This document shows, piece after piece, positions 1-9,273 of a stretch of DNA of 64,000 nt. Within the stretch, counting starts at the first letter, position 1; each line of letters opens with the position of its first letter. Under the pieces are notes generated by a model. It was not told the origin of the DNA, ran no database searches, and saw only the letters and a program-made list of their open reading frames with translations. A program made the position numbers and the translations under genes. Origin of the DNA: Rhodanobacter fulvus Jip2 (lineage in GTDB: Bacteria > Pseudomonadota > Gammaproteobacteria > Xanthomonadales > Rhodanobacteraceae); the NCBI RefSeq assembly GCF_000264315.1, contig NZ_AJXU01000075.1, positions 1 to 64,000 of the forward strand, in the 5' to 3' direction.

Positions 1-53
1 CGTCAAACCCGGGCCATCTCACCCTGACACCTTTTTATTGTGACCTTGATCAA

Positions 54-100
54 GGTGCCAGAGACAATTCCAACCTGACGCAAAGAATTGTCCCTGACAC
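54..100. repeat. REP-like imperfect palindrome upstream of the RloC-like gene
   Basis: Two arms of about 16 bases (54-70 and 85-100) are inverted copies of each other around the core GACAATTC/GAATTGTC, with a 14-base spacer and only two or three mismatches. The flank repeats a short motif, CCTGACACCTTTT, at about 23-35 and 148-160. Related GTGTCAGGG-type palindromes occur as REP elements mobilised by RAYT transposases in xanthomonads; no transposase lies in this window. No coding potential is evident in bases 1-186. Confidence 0.55.
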
Positions 101-186
101 GAATGGCACGGAACTGTCTTTGACTGCGCTCTTCAACGAATCGGGGCCCTGACACCTTTTCCGAGCATGCAAGAAAGTTGCACGTC

Positions 187-2532
187 ATGCGTGGCCAGAG
201 CACCATGGGGACCGCACACCAAGGACTGGAAAGCGCCAGCTCCGTGCCCACAGGGGGCCAGGTGATACGTTCCATCCAGCGGCTGCGCCAGTTCGGCGTA
301 TTTGACGACTTCCGAAAGACAGCGGCGCTGTCAGACTTCGGGACCAAAAACATCATCTACGGTTGGAACTACTCCGGGAAGACCACCCTGTCCCGGCTCT
401 TCTCTGCGCTGGGTCAAGGCAAGCCATACGCCGAATGCCCCACGGCCACTTTTGAGGTCCAGACCTCGACCGGCCAATCCGTTACTGAGGCCACGCTCTC
501 CACTTCCAATCTCAAAGTGGAAGTCTTCAACAGCGATTTTGTGACGACGAACCTCAGCTGGGACGGCGAAGACTTCCAATCCATTCTTCTGCTAGGCGAT
601 GAGTCAATCGAGGCAGAGAAGGCAATCGAGCACTGGTCGAAGCGACTGACCGAATGCCGTAGCCGATGGGCCAACACCCGCGCCAAGATTAGCGACATCG
701 ATGGTCGCGTCAACGGGGCAAAGACCACTACCGCCAAAGCCATTAAAACGACCCTTCAAATCGTTGAGGCATTTAACGCCACACATCTCGCATCTGAAAT
801 CACGCGTCTGCCCGCCGAGCCTCAGCAAGCGGTGCTGTCTGATGAAGCCTATGCGGCAGATATGCGACTGGCTATGACCAGCGAACAAGAACAGTTGCCG
901 GCTGTTCCATCCATCAGTGCGCCAATGCTCTCCCTGCTCAGCCTTCTTCAGGACGCAACACCCCTTCTCGAGTACCTCCCAGCCATCTCCACCACGTTGG
1001 ACCACCTTCGTGCGCACGCAGACACAGCACGATGGGTCGAACAGGGACTGAGCTTGCACGCGGACGTAGCGGCGTGTGAGTTCTGTGGCGGCCCTCTGAC
1101 GGAGGAACGACTGACGCAGCTACGCGGGCACTTTTCAAAAGACCTCACCCAACACAAGGCGTCCTTGAATGCGCTGCTCAACCGCGTAAAAACGGCTCAA
1201 CTCATCACCGAATGGCTAACGCCAACTGCCTTTTCTCCTCAGTTTCAGGCGGAAGCGACGACCCTCAATACAAGGCTCAAACAACTCTGTGAAGCCTACA
1301 ACGACGACTTAGACCGCCTGATGACCGCGATCCAGGCGAAAGTGGATGACCCTTTCGTTGATCAACTTGCTCCGGTGGTGTTTCCGGATATGTCGCTCGT
1401 CCTTGAAAGCACCTTCACTCAAGCGAAAGATATAATCCATCGCAACAACAAAAATATTGGCAACTTCGGCCAAGAGAAGAAGTCAGCGATTGGCCGACTG
1501 AAGGCCCATTTCGCAGCCAAATTTGCCCTCGATACGACCCGAGCTAAAGAAAACAAGAACCGAGATCGTGCCCTGCGCTATCAGGGCCGCCTCAAACCGC
1601 TGGGCGAAAGGATAGGGCAACGAATCAAAGACCTTCAGGCGAAAATCGACCGGGCGCAAAAGGGTCGAGAACGACTGAATGACCGCATCAGCGGATTGTT
1701 GGGCACTGGCATCATTCAAATCGAAGTCGTGCGCCTGAATGACACCGACCGTTTTACGTTGCGTCGGCAAGGACAGCCAGCCCGCAACCTGAGTGACGGG
1801 GAACGCACAGCCATTGCCTTCGCCTTCTTCCTAACAAAACTCGAAGAGCACAAATCGATGGATGACGTCATCGTCTATATCGATGACCCTATCTCCAGTC
1901 TCGATAGCAACCACGTCTTCCAGATTTATTCGGTCATCGAAAAAACCTTCTTTAAGAAGGTCGCTCAACCGAACGGGAAAGAAAAGTGGGTGACCAGCTG
2001 TCAACAATTGTTTCTTTCCACCCACAACTTCGAGTTCCTCGAGATGCTCAAAAAACTTCCCGTTGGCGGGAAGGCAGATGAGCGATATTTCTTCGTCAAG
2101 AGGACCAGTCCAACGAGTTCAACTTTGACCGACCTTCCCGACTCACTGCGGCGCTATACATCGGAATATCACTACCTGTTTAGCGTCATCCAGGAGTTTG
2201 TTCAGAACCCGAACAAGGATGATTTGGGGCAGCTCCTAGCGCTGCCCAATGCGCTACGCCGGTTTGTGGAGCTATACACCTACATGCGCCTGCCATGGCC
2301 CGGAAGCTCTGTGGAAAAACGGCTAGCTGCCCTGGTGGGGCCTGAAAAATCGCTTCGCGTCACCAAGCTGCTGCACCATTTCAGCCATCTTGAAACGGTC
2401 GAGCGACTGGCAACTCATTCAAATGTCATTGCGGACATTGAAGCGGTTGCAAACGAGGTGATTGCGCTGCTTCAAGAAGATCCGGCGCATTTCGCCGCAT
2501 TGATGCAAACAGACCCTTCGCTGGCTTCTTAG
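187..2532 (+). CDS. RloC/PrrC-like ABC-ATPase, candidate anticodon nuclease
   Basis: Large P-loop protein of the PF13166 (AAA_13) type, a family that includes the phage-exclusion tRNA nucleases PrrC and RloC. Numbered from an upstream TTG at 178, it shows Walker A GWNYSGKTT (62-70), a coiled region interrupted by CEFC (300-303) that resembles a Rad50/RloC zinc hook, ABC signature LSDGE (538-542), Walker B with DVIVYIDDP (563-571), D-loop SSLD and H-loop STHN (614-617). The C-terminal 100 residues carry R694-x3-E698 followed by HHFSH (733-737), which matches the order of the PrrC catalytic triad Arg-Glu-His. The start is uncertain: ATG 187 is used here, while ATG 205 or GTG 262 just before the conserved N-terminus are alternatives. 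The gene is visibly more AT-rich than its neighbours, which suggests transfer. The family call is firm; nuclease activity is inferred. Confidence 0.72.
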   Translation: MRGQSTMGTAHQGLESASSVPTGGQVIRSIQRLRQFGVFDDFRKTAALSDFGTKNIIYGWNYSGKTTLSRLFSALGQGKPYAECPTATFEVQTSTGQSVTEATLSTSNLKVEVFNSDFVTTNLSWDGEDFQSILLLGDESIEAEKAIEHWSKRLTECRSRWANTRAKISDIDGRVNGAKTTTAKAIKTTLQIVEAFNATHLASEITRLPAEPQQAVLSDEAYAADMRLAMTSEQEQLPAVPSISAPMLSLLSLLQDATPLLEYLPAISTTLDHLRAHADTARWVEQGLSLHADVAACEFCGGPLTEERLTQLRGHFSKDLTQHKASLNALLNRVKTAQLITEWLTPTAFSPQFQAEATTLNTRLKQLCEAYNDDLDRLMTAIQAKVDDPFVDQLAPVVFPDMSLVLESTFTQAKDIIHRNNKNIGNFGQEKKSAIGRLKAHFAAKFALDTTRAKENKNRDRALRYQGRLKPLGERIGQRIKDLQAKIDRAQKGRERLNDRISGLLGTGIIQIEVVRLNDTDRFTLRRQGQPARNLSDGERTAIAFAFFLTKLEEHKSMDDVIVYIDDPISSLDSNHVFQIYSVIEKTFFKKVAQPNGKEKWVTSCQQLFLSTHNFEFLEMLKKLPVGGKADERYFFVKRTSPTSSTLTDLPDSLRRYTSEYHYLFSVIQEFVQNPNKDDLGQLLALPNALRRFVELYTYMRLPWPGSSVEKRLAALVGPEKSLRVTKLLHHFSHLETVERLATHSNVIADIEAVANEVIALLQEDPAHFAALMQTDPSLAS

Positions 2533-2630
2533 CCTCGCGATTAATTCGCATCAACTTCCATCGCCCTACTTCCGAATATCTCAAATAAATATTGTTGCCC
2601 CTTTACCTTGCCTCCTTTTTGATTAGAAGA

Positions 2631-2849
2631 TCATCGCGCAACTTCCAAAATATGTAGCTCTACGCGCAGCCCAGCCTTTCCGGCCATGTTTACTAGGGCA
2701 TCCAAGCCAAACTCGTCGACCTTCCCACTTGTGAAGTCGGAAATACGAGGCTGAGTTACACCAAACGCCTTGGCGGCTTGTGATTGGCTCAGGTGTACAC
2801 GATGGATGTAGTCCTTGAGCGCCAACATAATCTCAGAGCGCAGCTTCAT
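2631..2849 (-). CDS. Truncated orphan XRE-family antitoxin (HigA/NadS-like)
   Basis: 72-residue helix-turn-helix protein with the core QSQAAKAFGVTQPRISDFTSG, as in HTH_37/NadS-type antitoxins that repress their own operon and neutralise a HigB/RelE-like toxin. Family members normally have about 15-20 more N-terminal residues leading into MKLRSEIML. Reading upstream in frame gives a family-like stretch (IADNAVQTES) that ends at a TGA (2880-2882), so the gene appears to have lost its N-terminus. No toxin ORF is present: only about 90 bases separate it from fabV. It faces the RloC-like gene convergently. It may be a residual regulator or a decaying remnant. Confidence 0.6.
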   Translation of the reverse strand: MKLRSEIMLALKDYIHRVHLSQSQAAKAFGVTQPRISDFTSGKVDEFGLDALVNMAGKAGLRVELHILEVAR

Positions 2850-2895
2850 GCTTTCGGTTTGAACTGCATTGTCTGCAATTCAAATAACCGGGTCA

Positions 2896-2923
2896 GAGCC
2901 ACTTCCTGGACGATAAGTGGCTC
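2896..2923. repeat. 9-bp stem-loop between fabV and the XRE gene
   Basis: GAGCCACTT (2896-2904) and AAGTGGCTC (2915-2923) form a perfect 9-bp inverted repeat with a 10-base loop. It lies just past the fabV stop on the fabV transcript. No T-tract follows on the minus strand, so it is a weak terminator candidate; a transcript-end structure or an autoregulatory operator of the antitoxin gene are alternatives. Confidence 0.35.
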
Positions 2924-2942
2924 AGCAGCAACTCGCGCAATA

Positions 2943-4145
2943 TCACCCCTCCAAACAATCAAACCGCCTATCCGCCTCGACCTCCGCGTCATAATCCACA
3001 TCCCCCCGATCAAACCCGAACAACTTCAAGAACTCATGCTTGTACCCCGCGTAGTCGGTAACCTCGCGCAGGTTTTCGGTGGTGACGGTAGGCCAGAGCG
3101 TCTTGCAGGGTTCCTGCACGTCGGCGCGCAGTTCCCAATCGTCCAGGCGCAGGCGGCCTTCGTCGTCGGTGGGTGCAGGGACGCCGTCGGCGCGGTAGAG
3201 GCGGTCGTGGAACAGGCGGTTGGCTTGTTCGATCGGGTTTTCGTGGATGCCTTTCGCTTTCATGATCTTGAAGGCGATGGAGACGTACAGCGGGATCACG
3301 GGGATGGCGGCGCTGGCCTGGGTGACGACGGATTTCATCACGCCCACATACGCTTCCAGGCCGGGGTGGCGGCTGCGCAGTTCTTTCGCGGTGTTGTCCA
3401 GGTGCTGCTTGGCCTGCCCCAGGGTGCCGTGCCAGTACATGGGCCAGGTGATCTCGGTGCCGATGTAGCTGTAGGCGATGGTCTTGGCGTGGTCGGCCAG
3501 CACGCCGGCGGCGCTCAGCGCGTCGATCCACAGCGCCCAGTCCTCGCCGCCCATCACGGTGACGGTGTCCTTGATTTCCTGTTCGGTAGCCGGCTCGACG
3601 GTGGCGTCGATGACGGTGTCCTTGTTGGTGTCGACCGAGGTGTTGTGGAACGGTTCGCCGATGGTCTTGAGCGCCGAGCGCACCACTTCGCCGGTGTCGG
3701 GCAGCTTGCGCACGGGCGAGGCCAGCGAATAGACGACCAGATCGATCGGGCCGCCCAGGTCGTTCTTGATGATCTCGATGGCCTTGGCGCGGGTCTCGTG
3801 GGAGAACGCGTCGCCGTTGATCGACTTGGCGACGAGGCCGGCGGCCTTGGCGGCCTTGTCGAACGCGGCGGCGTTGTACCAGCCGGCGGTGCCGGTCTTG
3901 TCCGGGCTGCTGGGTTTCTCGAAGAACACGCCCAGCGTGGCGGCGCCATAGCCGAACGCGGCGGTGATGCGCGAGGCCAGGCCGTAGCCGGTGGAGGCGC
4001 CGATGACGAGCACGCGCTTGGGGCCCTTGCTCTTGTCGTGGCCAGCGGCCTGGGTGATCGCGATCTGGTCGAGCACGTTGCGCTCGCAACCGACCGGGTG
4101 GGCGGTGACGCAGATGAAACCGCGGACTTTGGGCTTGATGATCAC
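2943..4145 (-). CDS. fabV: Enoyl-ACP reductase FabV
   Basis: 400-residue NADH-dependent trans-2-enoyl-ACP reductase that catalyses the last step of each fatty-acid elongation cycle in the cytoplasm. The start [12 protein letters not shown] and the Rossmann segment [15 protein letters not shown] are typical of the FabV family. The active-site pair has the FabV-specific Tyr-x8-Lys spacing ([10 protein letters not shown]), longer than in FabI. The length equals the usual 400 residues. FabV enzymes are naturally tolerant of triclosan, which is known for the family and not shown here. It is a single gene flanked upstream by a large palindromic repeat. Confidence 0.96.
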
Positions 4146-4263
4146 GGTGGCTCCCGATGCTGTTTTGGCAATTCGCCATAGTAACCAAGCGGGGCGGCCG
4201 TGCGCTGCCGTAGGGAGGACGATGCTATCGGAGGTGATGCGCCCGACGAGGCAGGATGATCCC

Positions 4264-4346
4264 CTGTGGGAGCGACTTCAGTCGCGATGCTTTTGCATTT
4301 TTGGGTCATTGAACAAAGAGCATCGCGACTGAAGTCGCTCCCACAG
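4264..4346. repeat. REP pair: 27-bp perfect inverted repeat
   Basis: Bases 4264-4290 and 4320-4346 are perfect inverted copies (27 bp) around a 29-base loop. The core is GGGAGCGACTTCAGTCGCGA, the GGGAGCGxCTTxAGxCGCGA class of intergenic palindromes abundant in Pseudomonas and Xanthomonadales. A second degenerate pair of the same family sits at 61667-61741. It occupies the fabV-cutC intergenic region, which otherwise holds nothing recognisable. Confidence 0.85.
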
Positions 4347-4370
4347 AAGCTGTCTGCCTGCCCTGCAGGT

Positions 4371-5108
4371 CTAGGGATGCTCAGGGACAGCGGTTTGCAG
4401 GGCTGTCGCGAGCGCGCGCACCTGTTCGACGTCGCTGCGGATTTCGCCGCCTTCCATATCGCTCAGGCACGGCCGCTGGTGGCGCATGGCGGAGGGATGC
4501 TGTTGTTTGGCGGAGGCGTGGAATTCGACAGCCCCGGTCGCTGCCGCCAGGGCGGCGATATTCTGCGCGGTGATTCCAGCGCCGGGCATCACCGCGACGC
4601 GCCCCGCAGCCTGCGCAACAAGCTCGCGGATCAATGCCGCACCGTCCGGCGCGCTGACCTGCGCGCCCGAGGTCAAGATGCGTTCGCAACCCAGCGCCAC
4701 GATGTCTTCCAGCGCCTGCGCGGGATCGCGGCTGAGATCGAACGCGCGATGGAAGGTGACGCCGAGTTTTCCGGCGGCGGCGATGAGCGGGCGGCAGCGT
4801 GCGCTGTCTACCCGGCTTTCGGCGTCGAGTACGCCCAGCACCACGCCGTCGCAACCCAGCGCCACGCAGGTCTCGATATCACGCCGCATGGTTTCGCATT
4901 CCAGCTCGCTGTAGAGGAAATCGCCGGCGCGCGGACGAATCAACACGTACAAGGGAATGCGCAGATGCTCGCGGGCCAGCGCGATCTGCGCGTGCGAGGG
5001 CGTGAGGCCGCCCAGTTCCAGCGCCGTGCAAAGCTCGACGCGGTTTGCTCCGCCCTGTTGCGCGGCAAGGGCAGAGGCGACCGAGTTGGCGGCGATTTCC
5101 AGGATCAT
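4371..5108 (-). CDS. cutC: Copper homeostasis protein CutC
   Basis: 245-residue TIM-barrel protein starting MILEIAANSVASALAAQQGGA. Conserved CutC blocks are visible: ANRVELC, GGLTPS, IPLYVLIRPR, FHRAFD, ILTSGA and MPGAGI near the C-terminus. CutC was linked genetically to copper tolerance in E. coli, but its biochemical role is still unclear. The start at 5108 is chosen because its ATGA overlaps the stop of the upstream glycosylasparaginase gene (5105-5108), giving translational coupling. A longer in-frame extension upstream has no family support. Confidence 0.92.
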   Translation of the reverse strand: MILEIAANSVASALAAQQGGANRVELCTALELGGLTPSHAQIALAREHLRIPLYVLIRPRAGDFLYSELECETMRRDIETCVALGCDGVVLGVLDAESRVDSARCRPLIAAAGKLGVTFHRAFDLSRDPAQALEDIVALGCERILTSGAQVSAPDGAALIRELVAQAAGRVAVMPGAGITAQNIAALAAATGAVEFHASAKQQHPSAMRHQRPCLSDMEGGEIRSDVEQVRALATALQTAVPEHP

Positions 5109-6142
5109 GAGTAGCTCGTGCGGTAGACGCTTTGCGCGGGGATCAGGGCATCCTGTTTTTGCGCATCGCACACGGCGTAGGCGAAGCCGTGCTGGATCGC
5201 GTACGCGCCGGCCTCGCCGTCACGGTTCATGGCCAGAAAGCCGACTTGCAGCGTCTTGGAGGCCTCGCGACGCTTGCGGACGATGCGCATTACGGCCTCC
5301 TTGCATGCCTCCTGCGGCGAGCGGCCTTGGCGCATCAGCTCCACCACCAGGAAGCTGCCGGCGTTGCGGATCACTTCCTCGCCCACGCCGGTGGAGGTGG
5401 CCGCGCCGACCTCGCCATCCACGTACAGGCCGGCGCCGATGATCGGGCTGTCGCCCACGCGGCCGCGCAGTTTCCAGGCCATGCCGCTGGTGGTGCAGGC
5501 GCCGGCCAGGCGGCCGTGCGCGTCGATGGCCAGCATGCCGATGGTGTCGTGGTTGTTGGCGCCGCCGGGGAGACCCGTGCCGTAGTCACGCACTTCGCTG
5601 TTGATCGACGGTTGGTATTTCGCCGTTTTCCGCCACTCGTGCCAGGCCTGCTCGGCTTCGGGCGTGAGCAGGTTCTGCTTCTTGAAGCCCTGCTCCAGCG
5701 CGAACTGCAGCGCGCCCTCACCCACCAGCAGCACGTGCGGCGTGCGCTCCATCACGCGCCGCGCTACGGAGATCGGATGCTCGATGTGTTCGAGTGCGGC
5801 CACCGCGCCGCAGCTGCCGTCGGCGTCCATGATGCTGGCGTCCAGGGTCACGTGGCCGTCGCGGTCGGGATAGCCGCCCTTGCCCACGCTGTGGTTTTTG
5901 AGATCGGATTCGGGCACCTGCACGCCGGTTTCGACCGCGTCCAGCGCGTTACCGCCCTTGCCCAGGACGGCCCACGCCGCCTGGTTGGCCGCAATACCGA
6001 AATCCCAGGTGGAGACGACCCGCGCCGCCGTGGCTTTCGCGCCGGCGCGCGTCGGTGCCGCGGCCAGCTTGCCGCCCCACGCCAGCATCGATGCCGAGGC
6101 GCCCAGCAGGGATGCCTTGAGGAAATTTCTGCGGTTTGGCAT
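5105..6142 (-). CDS. Tat-exported glycosylasparaginase (N4-(beta-N-acetylglucosaminyl)-L-asparaginase)
   Basis: 345-residue Ntn-hydrolase of the family that cleaves the GlcNAc-Asn bond or acts as an isoaspartyl/asparaginase-like amidase. The N-terminus MPNRRNFLKASLLGASASML is a twin-arginine signal (RRNFLK) followed by a hydrophobic stretch, so the enzyme should be exported folded to the periplasm. The autoprocessing site is in NHDTIGM; the Thr should become the N-terminal nucleophile of the beta subunit after self-cleavage. The substrate-binding region GRVGDSPIIGAG is present. The start at 6142 is preferred over an upstream one because it begins exactly with the signal peptide. It is coupled to cutC by a 4-base overlap. 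The physiological substrate is unknown. Confidence 0.88.
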   Translation of the reverse strand: MPNRRNFLKASLLGASASMLAWGGKLAAAPTRAGAKATAARVVSTWDFGIAANQAAWAVLGKGGNALDAVETGVQVPESDLKNHSVGKGGYPDRDGHVTLDASIMDADGSCGAVAALEHIEHPISVARRVMERTPHVLLVGEGALQFALEQGFKKQNLLTPEAEQAWHEWRKTAKYQPSINSEVRDYGTGLPGGANNHDTIGMLAIDAHGRLAGACTTSGMAWKLRGRVGDSPIIGAGLYVDGEVGAATSTGVGEEVIRNAGSFLVVELMRQGRSPQEACKEAVMRIVRKRREASKTLQVGFLAMNRDGEAGAYAIQHGFAYAVCDAQKQDALIPAQSVYRTSYS

Positions 6143-6171
6143 GGCGTGGTCCTCTATGGACGGCTGAAGAG

Positions 6172-6209
6172 CGACCCCTCCCCGGCCCTCCCCTGCGAGC
6201 AGGGGAGGG
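6172..6209. repeat. GC-rich palindromic repeat (CCCTCCCCTGC family), copy 1
   Basis: CCCTCCCCTGC (6186-6196) faces GCAGGGGAGGG (6199-6209), preceded by ACCCCTCCCCGG. The same element occurs in opposite orientation at 7526-7564 and as a degenerate direct copy at 7596-7632. This is an intergenic palindromic family; it has no coding role. Confidence 0.75.
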
Positions 6210-6231
6210 AGAAAAGCAGGGCGCGGAAAAC

Positions 6232-6259
6232 AAAAAACCCCGCACAGGATGCGGGGTTT
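6232..6259 (-). terminator. Rho-independent terminator of the cold-shock gene
   Basis: CCCCGCA (6238-6244) pairs with TGCGGGG (6250-6256) around a 5-base loop. On the minus strand the hairpin is followed by six T residues (complement of the A-tract 6232-6237). It lies about 30 bases past the csp stop. Confidence 0.85.
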
Positions 6260-6288
6260 CAATCTTGCGATACAACCTTGGCCTGTGA

Positions 6289-6498
6289 TCAGGCGAGGGC
6301 TGGCTCTACGGCCGATGCCTGGGCGCCCTTGGGGCCCTGGGTTACTTCGAACTGTACGCGCTGGCCTTCCTGCAGGCTGCGGAAGCCCTTGGAATTGATC
6401 GCTGAAAAATGGACGAACACGTCATCCCCACCGTCCTCGGGCGCGATGAAACCGAAACCCTTGGCGTCGTTGAACCATTTGACCGTACCAAAACTCAT
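6289..6498 (-). CDS. Cold-shock (CspA-family) protein
   Basis: 69-residue single cold-shock domain protein starting [18 protein letters not shown]. The RNP1 motif KGFGFI and RNP2 motif VFVHF, which bind single-stranded RNA or DNA, are intact. CspA-type proteins act as RNA chaperones that melt mRNA structure or as antiterminators; the sequence does not show whether this copy is cold-inducible. The C-terminus is slightly longer ([16 protein letters not shown]) than E. coli CspA. The upstream 220 bases (6499-6719) contain no gene but hold a 7-bp hairpin, CCCCGCA/TGCGGGG (6630-6647), that would lie in the 5' leader if transcription starts upstream of it. The gene is followed by a strong terminator. 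Confidence 0.95.
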
Positions 6499-6719
6499 TG
6501 CGTCGACCTCTGCATGTTGGGAGTGTGGGCGGCTGGAAACTGTCAGGCGAAAACCCGGAAGATTCGACCGCCCAGTTCCTCGGGCTGGATGCACCAGATC
6601 TGTGCGCTGAACCGCCGTATCCTTCGGCTCCCCGCATTGGTGCGGGGAAAAGTATCAGCGGGTTCGAGGGCAAAGCGCAACCTGCCATTCGGCCGTCTGT
6701 ATCGACCAGGCAGGTATCG

Positions 6720-7481
6720 TCAATCTTCCAGCAGCGCGGACAACAGGCCTGGGACTTCGGCGGTTGCCGCCGCCAGGTGGGCGAAGATTTCCTCGATGCT
6801 GATCTCGGCCTCGTCGCCGCAACCGGCCGCGTGGTTGGCCACCAGCGCCAGGCAGGCGTAGTCCAGCCCCAGCTCGCGAGCCAGCACGGCCTCGGGCATG
6901 CCCGTCATGCCGACCAGGTCGCAGCCATCGCGTTTCATGCGCGCGATCTCGGCGCGGGTTTCCAGCCGCGGGCCCTGGGTAGCACCGTAGCAGCCGCCAT
7001 CGATGATCGGCACGCCGCGCTTGCGCGCCGCCTGCAGCAGCGACTGGCGCAGGGATTCGGTGTACGGCTCGCTGAAATCGATGTGCCTGACATCGGCGCC
7101 TTCGACATCGCAATAGCTGGTGTCGCGGCCATGCGTGTAATCGATGAGCTGGTCGGGCACCACGATCACCCGCGGTCCCATGTCGGCACGGATGCCGCCC
7201 ACCGCGTTGACACCGATCACCCGTCGCGCACCCAGGCTGTGCAGGGCCCACACGTTGGCGCGGTAGTTGACGCGATGCGGCGGCAGGCTGTGGCTCTCGC
7301 CATGGCGCGCCAGGAAGGCTACCCGCCGGCCCACGAAATCGCCGACGACCACATCGCCGGACGCGGGGCCGTACGGGGTTTCCACCGTGTGGCGTGTGGC
7401 GTTTTCCAACCCTGAAAAATGGTAGAGCCCGCTGCCGCCGATGACGGCCAGGTCGATGGAAGTGTGGTCCGAATGAGGCAT
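6720..7481 (-). CDS. S-methyl-5'-thioinosine phosphorylase (MTAP/PNP family)
   Basis: 253-residue phosphorylase of the MTAP/PNP family. It contains IGGSGLYHFSGL near the N-terminus (phosphate loop), FLARHG, NYRANVWAL, VNAVGGI, the LIDYTHGR segment, YGATQGPRLET and GMTGMPEA, all typical of the Pseudomonas PA3004-type enzyme that cleaves methylthioinosine to hypoxanthine and methylthioribose-1-phosphate. The next gene downstream on the chromosome encodes hypoxanthine phosphoribosyltransferase, which would recycle the hypoxanthine; this supports the thioinosine rather than thioadenosine reading. The start MPHSDHTSID at 7481 is chosen because longer readings run through a palindromic repeat. Confidence 0.87.
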   Translation of the reverse strand: MPHSDHTSIDLAVIGGSGLYHFSGLENATRHTVETPYGPASGDVVVGDFVGRRVAFLARHGESHSLPPHRVNYRANVWALHSLGARRVIGVNAVGGIRADMGPRVIVVPDQLIDYTHGRDTSYCDVEGADVRHIDFSEPYTESLRQSLLQAARKRGVPIIDGGCYGATQGPRLETRAEIARMKRDGCDLVGMTGMPEAVLARELGLDYACLALVANHAAGCGDEAEISIEEIFAHLAAATAEVPGLLSALLED

Positions 7482-7525
7482 CGTAATGATCCGTTTAAGG
7501 CTAAAGCGGTGGCTTTTGCTTTGCT

Positions 7526-7632
7526 CCCTCCCCTGCTCGCAGGGGAGGGCTGGGGAGGGGTGGCTTTTGATCTTCGAGTCAAACGCAAGAGCGTTACCCC
7601 CTCCCAACCTCCCCCTGCAGGCAGGAGGAGGA
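7526..7632. repeat. Inverted pair of GC-rich palindromes between hpt and mtiP (copies 2 and 3)
   Basis: Copy 2 (7526-7564) is an inverted copy of the element at 6172-6209, with CCCTCCCCTGC/GCAGGGGAGGG at 7526-7549. Copy 3 (7596-7632) is a degenerate direct copy ending right at the hpt stop codon. The pair is arranged like a BIME and could stabilise the hpt mRNA end. Confidence 0.7.
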
Positions 7633-7633
7633 G

Positions 7634-8188
7634 TCAATCGTCGCGCAGGGCGTAAATGTCGGGCAGGTTGCGGCCCTGCTCGTGATAGTCCATGCCGTAG
7701 CCGAAGACGTAGCGGTCGGGCAGCTCGACGCCGTTGAAATCCGACGCGATGCCGTCGACCAGGCGATCGTGCTGTTTGGTGCAGAGGCTGGCGATCAGCA
7801 CCTTCTTCGCGCCGCGCTGGTAGCAGTCGTCGCGCACGGCTTTCAGGGTATGCCCTTCGTCGAGGATGTCGTCGACCAGCAGCACGATGCGGTCGCGCAG
7901 CGACGCCTGCGGCTCGCGCAACCACATCAGCTCGCTGCCGGCGGTGTCGCCGCGGTAGCGGGTGGCGTGCACGTAGTCGAACTCGAGATCGGTGCGGATC
8001 GCCAGCGCCAGCTGCCCGGCAAAGATCAGCGCGCCGTTCATCACGGTGAGAAACACCGGCCGCTCGCCATCCAGCGCCACGTCGATCTGGCGGCCCATGT
8101 CGGCGATCACGCTTTCCAGCGTGACACGCTCATATAACAGTTCGGCGTTGGCCAACGCAGCGGCAAGGGACGGTACGGTAGGGCTCAT
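7634..8188 (-). CDS. hpt: Hypoxanthine (guanine) phosphoribosyltransferase
   Basis: 184-residue type I phosphoribosyltransferase that converts hypoxanthine (and perhaps guanine) plus PRPP to the nucleotide. The PRPP-binding motif VLLVDDILDEGHTL is exact for the family; the flexible-loop and C-terminal blocks (VGF-like YVFGYGMDYHEQGRNLPDIY) are present. The start ATG at 8188 is preceded by GGAGAC. It lies immediately upstream of mtiP in the same direction, which makes a small purine-salvage cluster. The 3' end abuts the palindromic repeats at 7596-7632. Confidence 0.94.
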   Translation of the reverse strand: MSPTVPSLAAALANAELLYERVTLESVIADMGRQIDVALDGERPVFLTVMNGALIFAGQLALAIRTDLEFDYVHATRYRGDTAGSELMWLREPQASLRDRIVLLVDDILDEGHTLKAVRDDCYQRGAKKVLIASLCTKQHDRLVDGIASDFNGVELPDRYVFGYGMDYHEQGRNLPDIYALRDD

Positions 8189-8248
8189 AAGTTGTCTCCA
8201 TGGGGGAATCAAGAGTGGTGGGTGCGGACAGGTTTCGCTTCGACGACT

Positions 8249-8273
8249 CCCTATTCCCCATTCCCTATTCCCG
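8249..8273. repeat. Tandem ATTCCC heptamer repeat overlapping the nagZ 3' end
   Basis: Tandem CTATTCC / CCATTCC / CTATTCC units form one arm of the heptamer family seen as full inverted pairs at 15603-15689 and 18854-18934. Here the array supplies the last codons and the TAG stop of nagZ. Confidence 0.6.
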
Positions 8274-9273
8274 GCCCGGCATGCAACGCAGTGATGCGCG
8301 CCACGAAGCGATCGCGCTGCGGGTTGTCGATCAGCCCTTCCCAGCCGGCAGCGATGGCGCCGCGCAGGTTGGCTAATGATGCACGACCCGTCTCCCTGCC
8401 CTGCACCGCGGCGATGGCTTCGTCGACCACGTCGGGAAAACAGGCCAGCACCAGGTCGCAACCCGCATCCAGATGAGCCTGCACGCGCCCGCCCACGGAA
8501 CCGGCTGCGCCGGCGGCGGCCATGCTGATGTCGTCGCTGACGACGACGCCGGTAAAGCCCAGTTCGCCGCGCAGGATGCGCTCGATCCAGATGCGCGAGT
8601 AGCCCGCCGGTTGCGCGTCCACGGCGGGATAGGTCACGTGCGCCATCATCACCGCTTCCACCCGCGCCTCGATGCATTCGGCGAAGGGCAGCAGGTCGTC
8701 GCCGAGAATCCGTTCGAGTGGGCGCGGGTCGATCGCCGCGGCCTTGTGCGTATCGGTGGCCACCGAACCGTGGCCGGGGAAATGCTTGATGACGGCGGCC
8801 ATGCCGGCCAGGTGCATGCCGCGCACATAGGCCTGCGCCAGTTCGGCGGTGACCGCCGGCTCGGCATGGAACGCGCGCAGCCCGATCGCGGCATTGCCGC
8901 GGGCCAGATCCACCACCGGCGCGAAACTGAAATCGACGCCGCTGGCGCGCAGCTCGCTGGCCATGACCCAGGCGTGCTCCTCGGCCAGGCGCACCGCCTC
9001 GTGCGGATCGTGGGCGTAGCGCTCGCCGATCGCCGACAGCGGCGGCAGCCGGGTGAAGCCGTCGCGGAAGCGTTGTACCGGGCCGCCCTCCTGATCCACC
9101 GCGATCAGCATGTCGTCGCCGCCGGCCTCGCGAATCGCGTCGCACAAGGCGGACAGCTGATCGCGCGACCGGTAGTTGCGCGAAAACAGCAACACGCCGG
9201 CCACGCCGGGCTCGCTCAGCCAGCGCTTTTCATGCTCGGCCAGCTCCAGCGCGGCCACACCGATCATCAGCAT
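8251..9273 (-). CDS. nagZ: Beta-N-acetylhexosaminidase NagZ
   Basis: 340-residue cytoplasmic GH3 enzyme that removes GlcNAc from anhydro-muropeptides in peptidoglycan recycling. It shows the family signature AAVIKHFPGHGSVATDTHK, the substrate loop with AVDQEGGPVQRF and the nucleophile Asp in VVVSDDISM. The ATG at 9273 overlaps the upstream CYTH gene stop by 7 bases; the ATG at 9267 is also possible. The last eight residues (GPGIGNGE) are encoded by a GGGAATA-type repeat, so the natural C-terminus was probably shorter. Confidence 0.94.
   Translation of the reverse strand: MLMIGVAALELAEHEKRWLSEPGVAGVLLFSRNYRSRDQLSALCDAIREAGGDDMLIAVDQEGGPVQRFRDGFTRLPPLSAIGERYAHDPHEAVRLAEEHAWVMASELRASGVDFSFAPVVDLARGNAAIGLRAFHAEPAVTAELAQAYVRGMHLAGMAAVIKHFPGHGSVATDTHKAAAIDPRPLERILGDDLLPFAECIEARVEAVMMAHVTYPAVDAQPAGYSRIWIERILRGELGFTGVVVSDDISMAAAGAAGSVGGRVQAHLDAGCDLVLACFPDVVDEAIAAVQGRETGRASLANLRGAIAAGWEGLIDNPQRDRFVARITALHAGPGIGNGE

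Follow-up and report, generated by a model that had tools for sequence, protein, structure and literature searches.

What does the gene at the very beginning of contig NZ_AJXU01000075.1 of Rhodanobacter fulvus Jip2 encode, and what kind of chromosomal site does it occupy? We analysed positions 1 to 64,000 of this contig (in the following called the window), at whose left end a preliminary description had proposed an RloC-type anticodon nuclease acting in phage defence. Sequence comparison and structure models support the nuclease reading: the gene very probably encodes an RloC-family anticodon nuclease, apparently of a stand-alone form, whereas tRNA cleavage, its trigger and a role in defence would follow by analogy with the characterised RloC proteins and their family.

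The reading frame present at the window start ends at position 2532, and its longest reading comprises 784 amino acids. The start codon, previously left unsettled, is likely the GTG at position 262, giving a gene at 262..2532 on the forward strand with 756 codons plus a stop, consistent with the Pfam and PADLOC matches. This assignment draws on the match starts and start codons of relatives and on a likely ribosome-binding site, AGGGGG at 252..257 on the same strand, preceding the GTG. With a query read from position 187, in which residue 26 corresponds to GTG 262, the matches of 80 named relatives started at residue 26–28 in 36 cases, at 20–25 in 20, later in 13 and earlier in only 11, for which reason a start at 187 was judged unlikely. 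Among the 63 relatives whose match starts at residue 20–33, a start codon stands exactly at the residue-26 place in 41. A promoter scan of window positions 1–3000 returned no sigma-70-like site. Residue numbers below count from GTG 262; those of the preliminary description, counted from TTG 178, are higher by 28, its C300/C303, R694, E698 and H737 being C272/C275, R666, E670 and H709 here.

A search with hidden Markov models bore out the expected family: Pfam AAA_13 (PF13166) matches the 756-residue protein end to end (6e-126), and this is the only PF13166 match in the R. fulvus Jip2 genome. Of the PADLOC models, three for PDC-S06 cover nearly the whole protein (≤1e-134, best 6e-142), followed by the next-best model at 2e-49 and by the PrrC model, which covers part of the protein, at 4e-12. 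PDC-S06 denotes a candidate single-gene defence system and, in the accessible part of its source, is a label with no function attached (PMC11514479). An NCBIfam search gave no match near any cut-off.

RloC was defined by ABC motifs in common with PrrC, an insert with coiled coil and CxxC, and a length of 658–897 amino acids (Davidov and Kaufmann, PMC2610378). The window protein, with 756 residues (784 in the longest reading), lies within this range and shares the ABC-ATPase head, the helical insert with CxxC and the C-terminal triad with the RloC proteins of Geobacillus kaustophilus (GkaRloC) and Acinetobacter baylyi (PMC2610378, PMC3874168). Its identity to Acinetobacter sequences in a chosen set of 40 aligned rows is 24–25%, these being rows from two other species and not the tested proteins.

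Conservation was read from an alignment of 123 distinct sequences, the window's included, comprising genome matches, plasmid matches and the loci of 80 relatives minus two exact duplicates; since each was found through its resemblance to the window protein, or to an alignment with that protein at its head, the figures hold within this homologous group. Two smaller alignments, of 20 and 40 rows, were chosen sets. The motifs previously noted as occurring together in one protein are all present. The Walker A motif GWNYSGKTT (residues 34–42, 361..387, all motifs lying on the forward strand) has G34, N36, G39 and K40 invariant in the 40 chosen rows, and K40 is found in 118 of the 123 sequences, the other five having gaps. 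It is followed by CEFC (residues 272–275, 1075..1086), a candidate zinc hook of the CxxC type, with C272 in 120 and C275 in 121 sequences. A full hook is missing from three rows: the fragments L019 and L044, and L028, where an insertion sequence has broken the relative and the row holds its larger piece. At this last locus, on a Pseudomonas putida plasmid, the RloC relative is split by an IS30-like element, ISPpu17 (L028, 5001–8328). Further along lie the ABC signature LSDGE (residues 510–514, 1789..1803; S511 in 123, E514 in 120 of 123), the Walker B motif VIVYIDDP with the D-loop after it (residues 536–543, 1867..1890; D541 and D542 in all 123), and an STH motif; the switch or linchpin histidine H588 (2023..2025) is likewise invariant.

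The published RloC motif is Arg-X3-Glu-X36-52-His, often with a Ser preceding the His, its catalytic Arg is assigned to RxxxE, and replacement of any triad residue by Ala abolished the activity of GkaRloC (PMC2610378). The window protein reads R666-X3-E670-X38-H709 with S708, and thus falls within the published spacing; the GkaRloC residues R692/E696/H737 imply X40 instead of X38, a comparison made by published residues only. Conservation of the three residues, the lack of which the preliminary description had named as grounds for rejection, is nearly complete: Arg666 (in RRFVE, 2257..2271) is found in 123 of 123 sequences, Glu670 is Glu in 116 and Asp in 7, and His709 (Ser708-His709, 2383..2388) is again found in 123, with Ser708 in 120 and His in its place in three. 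As sequence evidence, the motif is more than a chance occurrence, since it is kept across homologues from several phyla. The third residue had been sought within H733–737 (earlier numbering); H737, now H709, holds that place, and H733 was rejected as the catalytic histidine (H 30, N 75, D 13, Q 4, K 1).

In the structure model, the head is a Rad50/SMC-like ABC-ATPase formed at the two ends of an inserted helical arm, and the C-terminal domain comes after it. The two head halves are separated by this long helical insert, in which CEFC sits, in line with the RloC insert, which splits the ATPase domain and bears a CxxC zinc hook. A whole-protein profile compared with the PDB returned Rad50, AriA and SMC1A, as well as apolipoprotein via the helical insert; a plain PDB sequence search gave only two matches for the whole protein, with E above 0.5, and the best E of a profile of the C-terminal domain was 0.16. 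This domain (residues 622–756, 2125..2529, forward strand) has, as modelled, a HEPN-like helical fold. Folded alone, it had HEPN toxins as its best VIA-align matches, and the HEPN-like reading depends on this method, as a Foldseek search with the domain alone was not significant (best E 0.33). The nuclease domains of RloC and PrrC belong to the HEPN superfamily (PMC3710099). The HEPN toxins themselves (HEPN-MNT or MntA-HepT) differ by their strict Rx4-6H motif, in place of which the window protein has K702-x6-H709. They are also not known to carry an ABC-ATPase. No PrrC or RloC structure was among the structure matches listed, which excludes nothing, and a literature search found, by title, no RloC cryo-EM study and no recent PrrC structure work.

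Which RNA such a domain would cut is where the strongest competing explanation enters. A FastTree tree built from 121 of the rows, after removal of two short ones, joins the window protein to L002 and L003 (support 1.0) within a clade of 14 members (support 1.0), in which the sequences are mostly proteobacterial but include one from Allomuricauda. Residue 705 is His in all 14 members, whereas the other 109 sequences have N 75, H 16, D 13, Q 4 and K 1; residue 702 is Lys in 13 of 14, against Arg in 74 of the 109. The clade thus reads KxxHxFSH by the catalytic histidine, compared with the commoner RxxNxxSH. Together with the further ABC-HEPN families of the wider group (PMC3710099), this deviation leaves a small but appreciable chance that the protein, with the same architecture, is a defence RNase of the ABC-HEPN type from the wider AAA_13 group and either attacks another RNA (mRNA, rRNA or a different region of tRNA) or responds to another trigger. 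However, both the triad and the distances within it agree with the motif published for RloC, and HEPN domains usually have N, D or H after the motif Arg (PMC3710099).

The Rad50/SMC-like head could also suggest a pure DNA-repair protein of this type without nuclease function, which we consider very unlikely: the R/E/H triad is conserved, the distribution is patchy, and a model of the isolated C-terminal domain looks HEPN-like, in keeping with the fold assigned in the literature to the nuclease domain of RloC (PMC3710099). A best match to such a pure SMC-like clade of AAA_13 was among the outcomes that the preliminary description had named as speaking against it. Least probable of all is a PrrC-type nuclease that a type I restriction enzyme keeps silent, since the shared ABC-ATPase and Arg-Glu-His triad, the partial PADLOC PrrC match and the HsdR-N-like matches on two other contigs are set against 756 residues instead of 341–416 and a long hook-bearing insert foreign to PrrC, and against the lack of any HSDR_N match on this contig, PrrC being linked to type Ic hsd genes (PMC2610378).

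RloC genes are usually unlinked to type I restriction-modification systems. The genome's HSDR_N matches lie on contigs C42 and C65 and none on the window's own contig (C75), HsdM and HsdS not having been searched for. The earlier claim of a stand-alone gene without hsdRMS may hold but covers only the visible contig, since the left neighbourhood lies past its first base.

For an RloC-family nuclease, the characterised proteins suggest the following course. Zinc would join the arms via the CxxC hook and keep the enzyme inactive. Contact of the ATPase head with broken or linear DNA would lead to ATP hydrolysis and switch on the HEPN domain; RloC activation has been tied to an ATPase acting with linear DNA and to inducers of DNA breaks (PMC3874168). 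The HEPN domain would then cut tRNA anticodon loops, where GkaRloC excises the wobble base and where tRNA-Glu and tRNA-Gln are the natural substrates of RloC (PMC3874168), and translation would stop when DNA is damaged or a phage infects the cell.

The distribution of the family is sparse around the window's genome. Matches (E ≤0.001) were found in 21 of 233 genomes of the family and in 31 of 398 genomes drawn from the order, many of them distant, and only three genomes, the window's own included, exceeded 50% identity; the 230 matching plasmid records all stayed below 60%. At 54.1%, the guanine-cytosine (GC) content of the gene lies below that of every same-size window over the rest of the 64 kb (mean 64.5%, sd 2.1, minimum 59.1%), in agreement with the AT-richness noted before. 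The gene is probably an acquisition, located at a variable site on the 3′ side of fabV. Viral origin was considered and rejected, a viral contig scan yielding no relative and phage records only four matches of 20–25% identity.

A neighbour gene common to the clade was also sought and rejected: comparison of the open reading frames (ORFs) of the 14 loci gave nothing clade-wide. ORFs were shared as plasmid backbone between L026 and L028, at 25% identity between L065 and L067, at 42% between L065 and L077, and as an integrase-type block in L026, L028 and L067. In these last three, two Pseudomonas plasmids and P. grimontii, a block of three large genes is found near the RloC relative (L026 2576–7687, L028 35–4687, L067 11196–16301). 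Its first and third genes are integrase-like, the latter below the Pfam cut-off, its second has no Pfam match, and a small gene alongside matches DUF6262 and TetR weakly. We take this arrangement to resemble the genes of Tn554-type elements, and by that analogy the Pseudomonas relatives possibly have a Tn554-like carrier.

Since window base 1 is the first base of the contig, the RloC gene begins only 261 bases in. Upstream of it lies, as had been described, a palindrome resembling repetitive extragenic palindromes (55..100, unstranded), with 16-nt arms at 55–70 and 85–100 that are 88% complementary. The 14-bp repeat CCCTGACACCTTTT occurs at 22–35 and 147–160, with two more exact copies in the assembly. 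Downstream, a small antitoxin-type gene of the HTH_37 family (2631..2849, reverse strand; PF13744, 6e-18) sits between the RloC gene and fabV; it is convergent with the former and not shown to be part of its system. The gap between it and fabV is only 93 bases, so no full partner toxin fits there. The fabV gene follows at 2943..4145 on the reverse strand (NF043048, 1e-203), its 3′ side bounding the variable region.

We compared this site across the genus. A fabV DNA match (E 0.001) was present in 43 of 45 same-genus genomes, in at least two of them as a short match only (G165, G168). The best 30 loci were taken, the window's own plus 29, and 1.5 kb flanks were compared on each side for the window plus 28 loci, one short locus being omitted per side. 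At least 300 bp were common to 4 of 406 pairs 3′ of fabV, compared with 136 of 406 on the 5′ side, which is therefore itself only partly conserved. Flanks with a GC content below 0.60 numbered 23 of 29 on the 3′ side and 3 of 29 on the 5′ side. The 3′ flank of fabV, represented by window positions 2533–2942 and by 28 same-genus loci (L150–L177), is thus hypervariable and AT-rich across the genus. A gene present on the far side in some relatives (taken from L191) lies inside contig C1 of the window's genome; the far side of the window's own site falls past the end of its contig.

For 20 of the 29 loci we retrieved 3′ sequence of up to 9 kb and examined 20 proteins from 18 of them (not L181 and L187), hand-picked as long ORFs near fabV, with a single other flank as control. 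Ten proteins in 9 of the 18 loci had a PADLOC match at ≤1e-8; such model matches are not equivalent to complete systems, and generic ATPase domains match many models. The matches were to OLD (L180), OLD/Gabija-like (L194), a HEC-04/AriA-like ATPase (L179), a STAND-like DUF626_VIII protein (L182), HNH (L183, L184), PDC-S73 (L195), weakly to PD-Lambda-5_A (L186), and, at L192, to a type IIG restriction enzyme adjoining a second RloC-family protein. Other cargo comprised a GHKL ATPase (L190), DUF4062 (L191), Fic (L193) and HSP70 (L198), and the proteins tested at L185, L188, L189, L196 and L197 had no match. At L192, from another species, the distant RloC-family gene (3522–5753, forward strand) and the type IIG restriction-modification gene (5854–8898, reverse strand) lie side by side; the RloC-family protein (also L012) shows 21.7% identity to the window protein over the best segment and has both CxxC and R-x3-E...SH.

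The main text of a paper on Stenotrophomonas maltophilia islands, in the part available, mentions neither fabV nor enoyl or reductase (PMC11680222), and we do not claim the site as previously undescribed. We see an even chance that short anti-phage cassettes are exchanged genus-wide at the 3′ edge of fabV, the RloC gene and the L192 pair being two of them, and that the unmatched cargo of L185, L188, L189, L196 and L197 includes undescribed defence genes.

The gene itself would add one more RloC to a known and widely spread family, in which the changed residues beside the catalytic histidine of its clade could serve to test which residues set the RNA target. Its chromosomal spot, where related species carry differing and often defence-like genes, is a lead worth a separate survey: if the 3′ side of fabV is an exchange site for defence genes, reading it in more species would be a cheap route to new ones.
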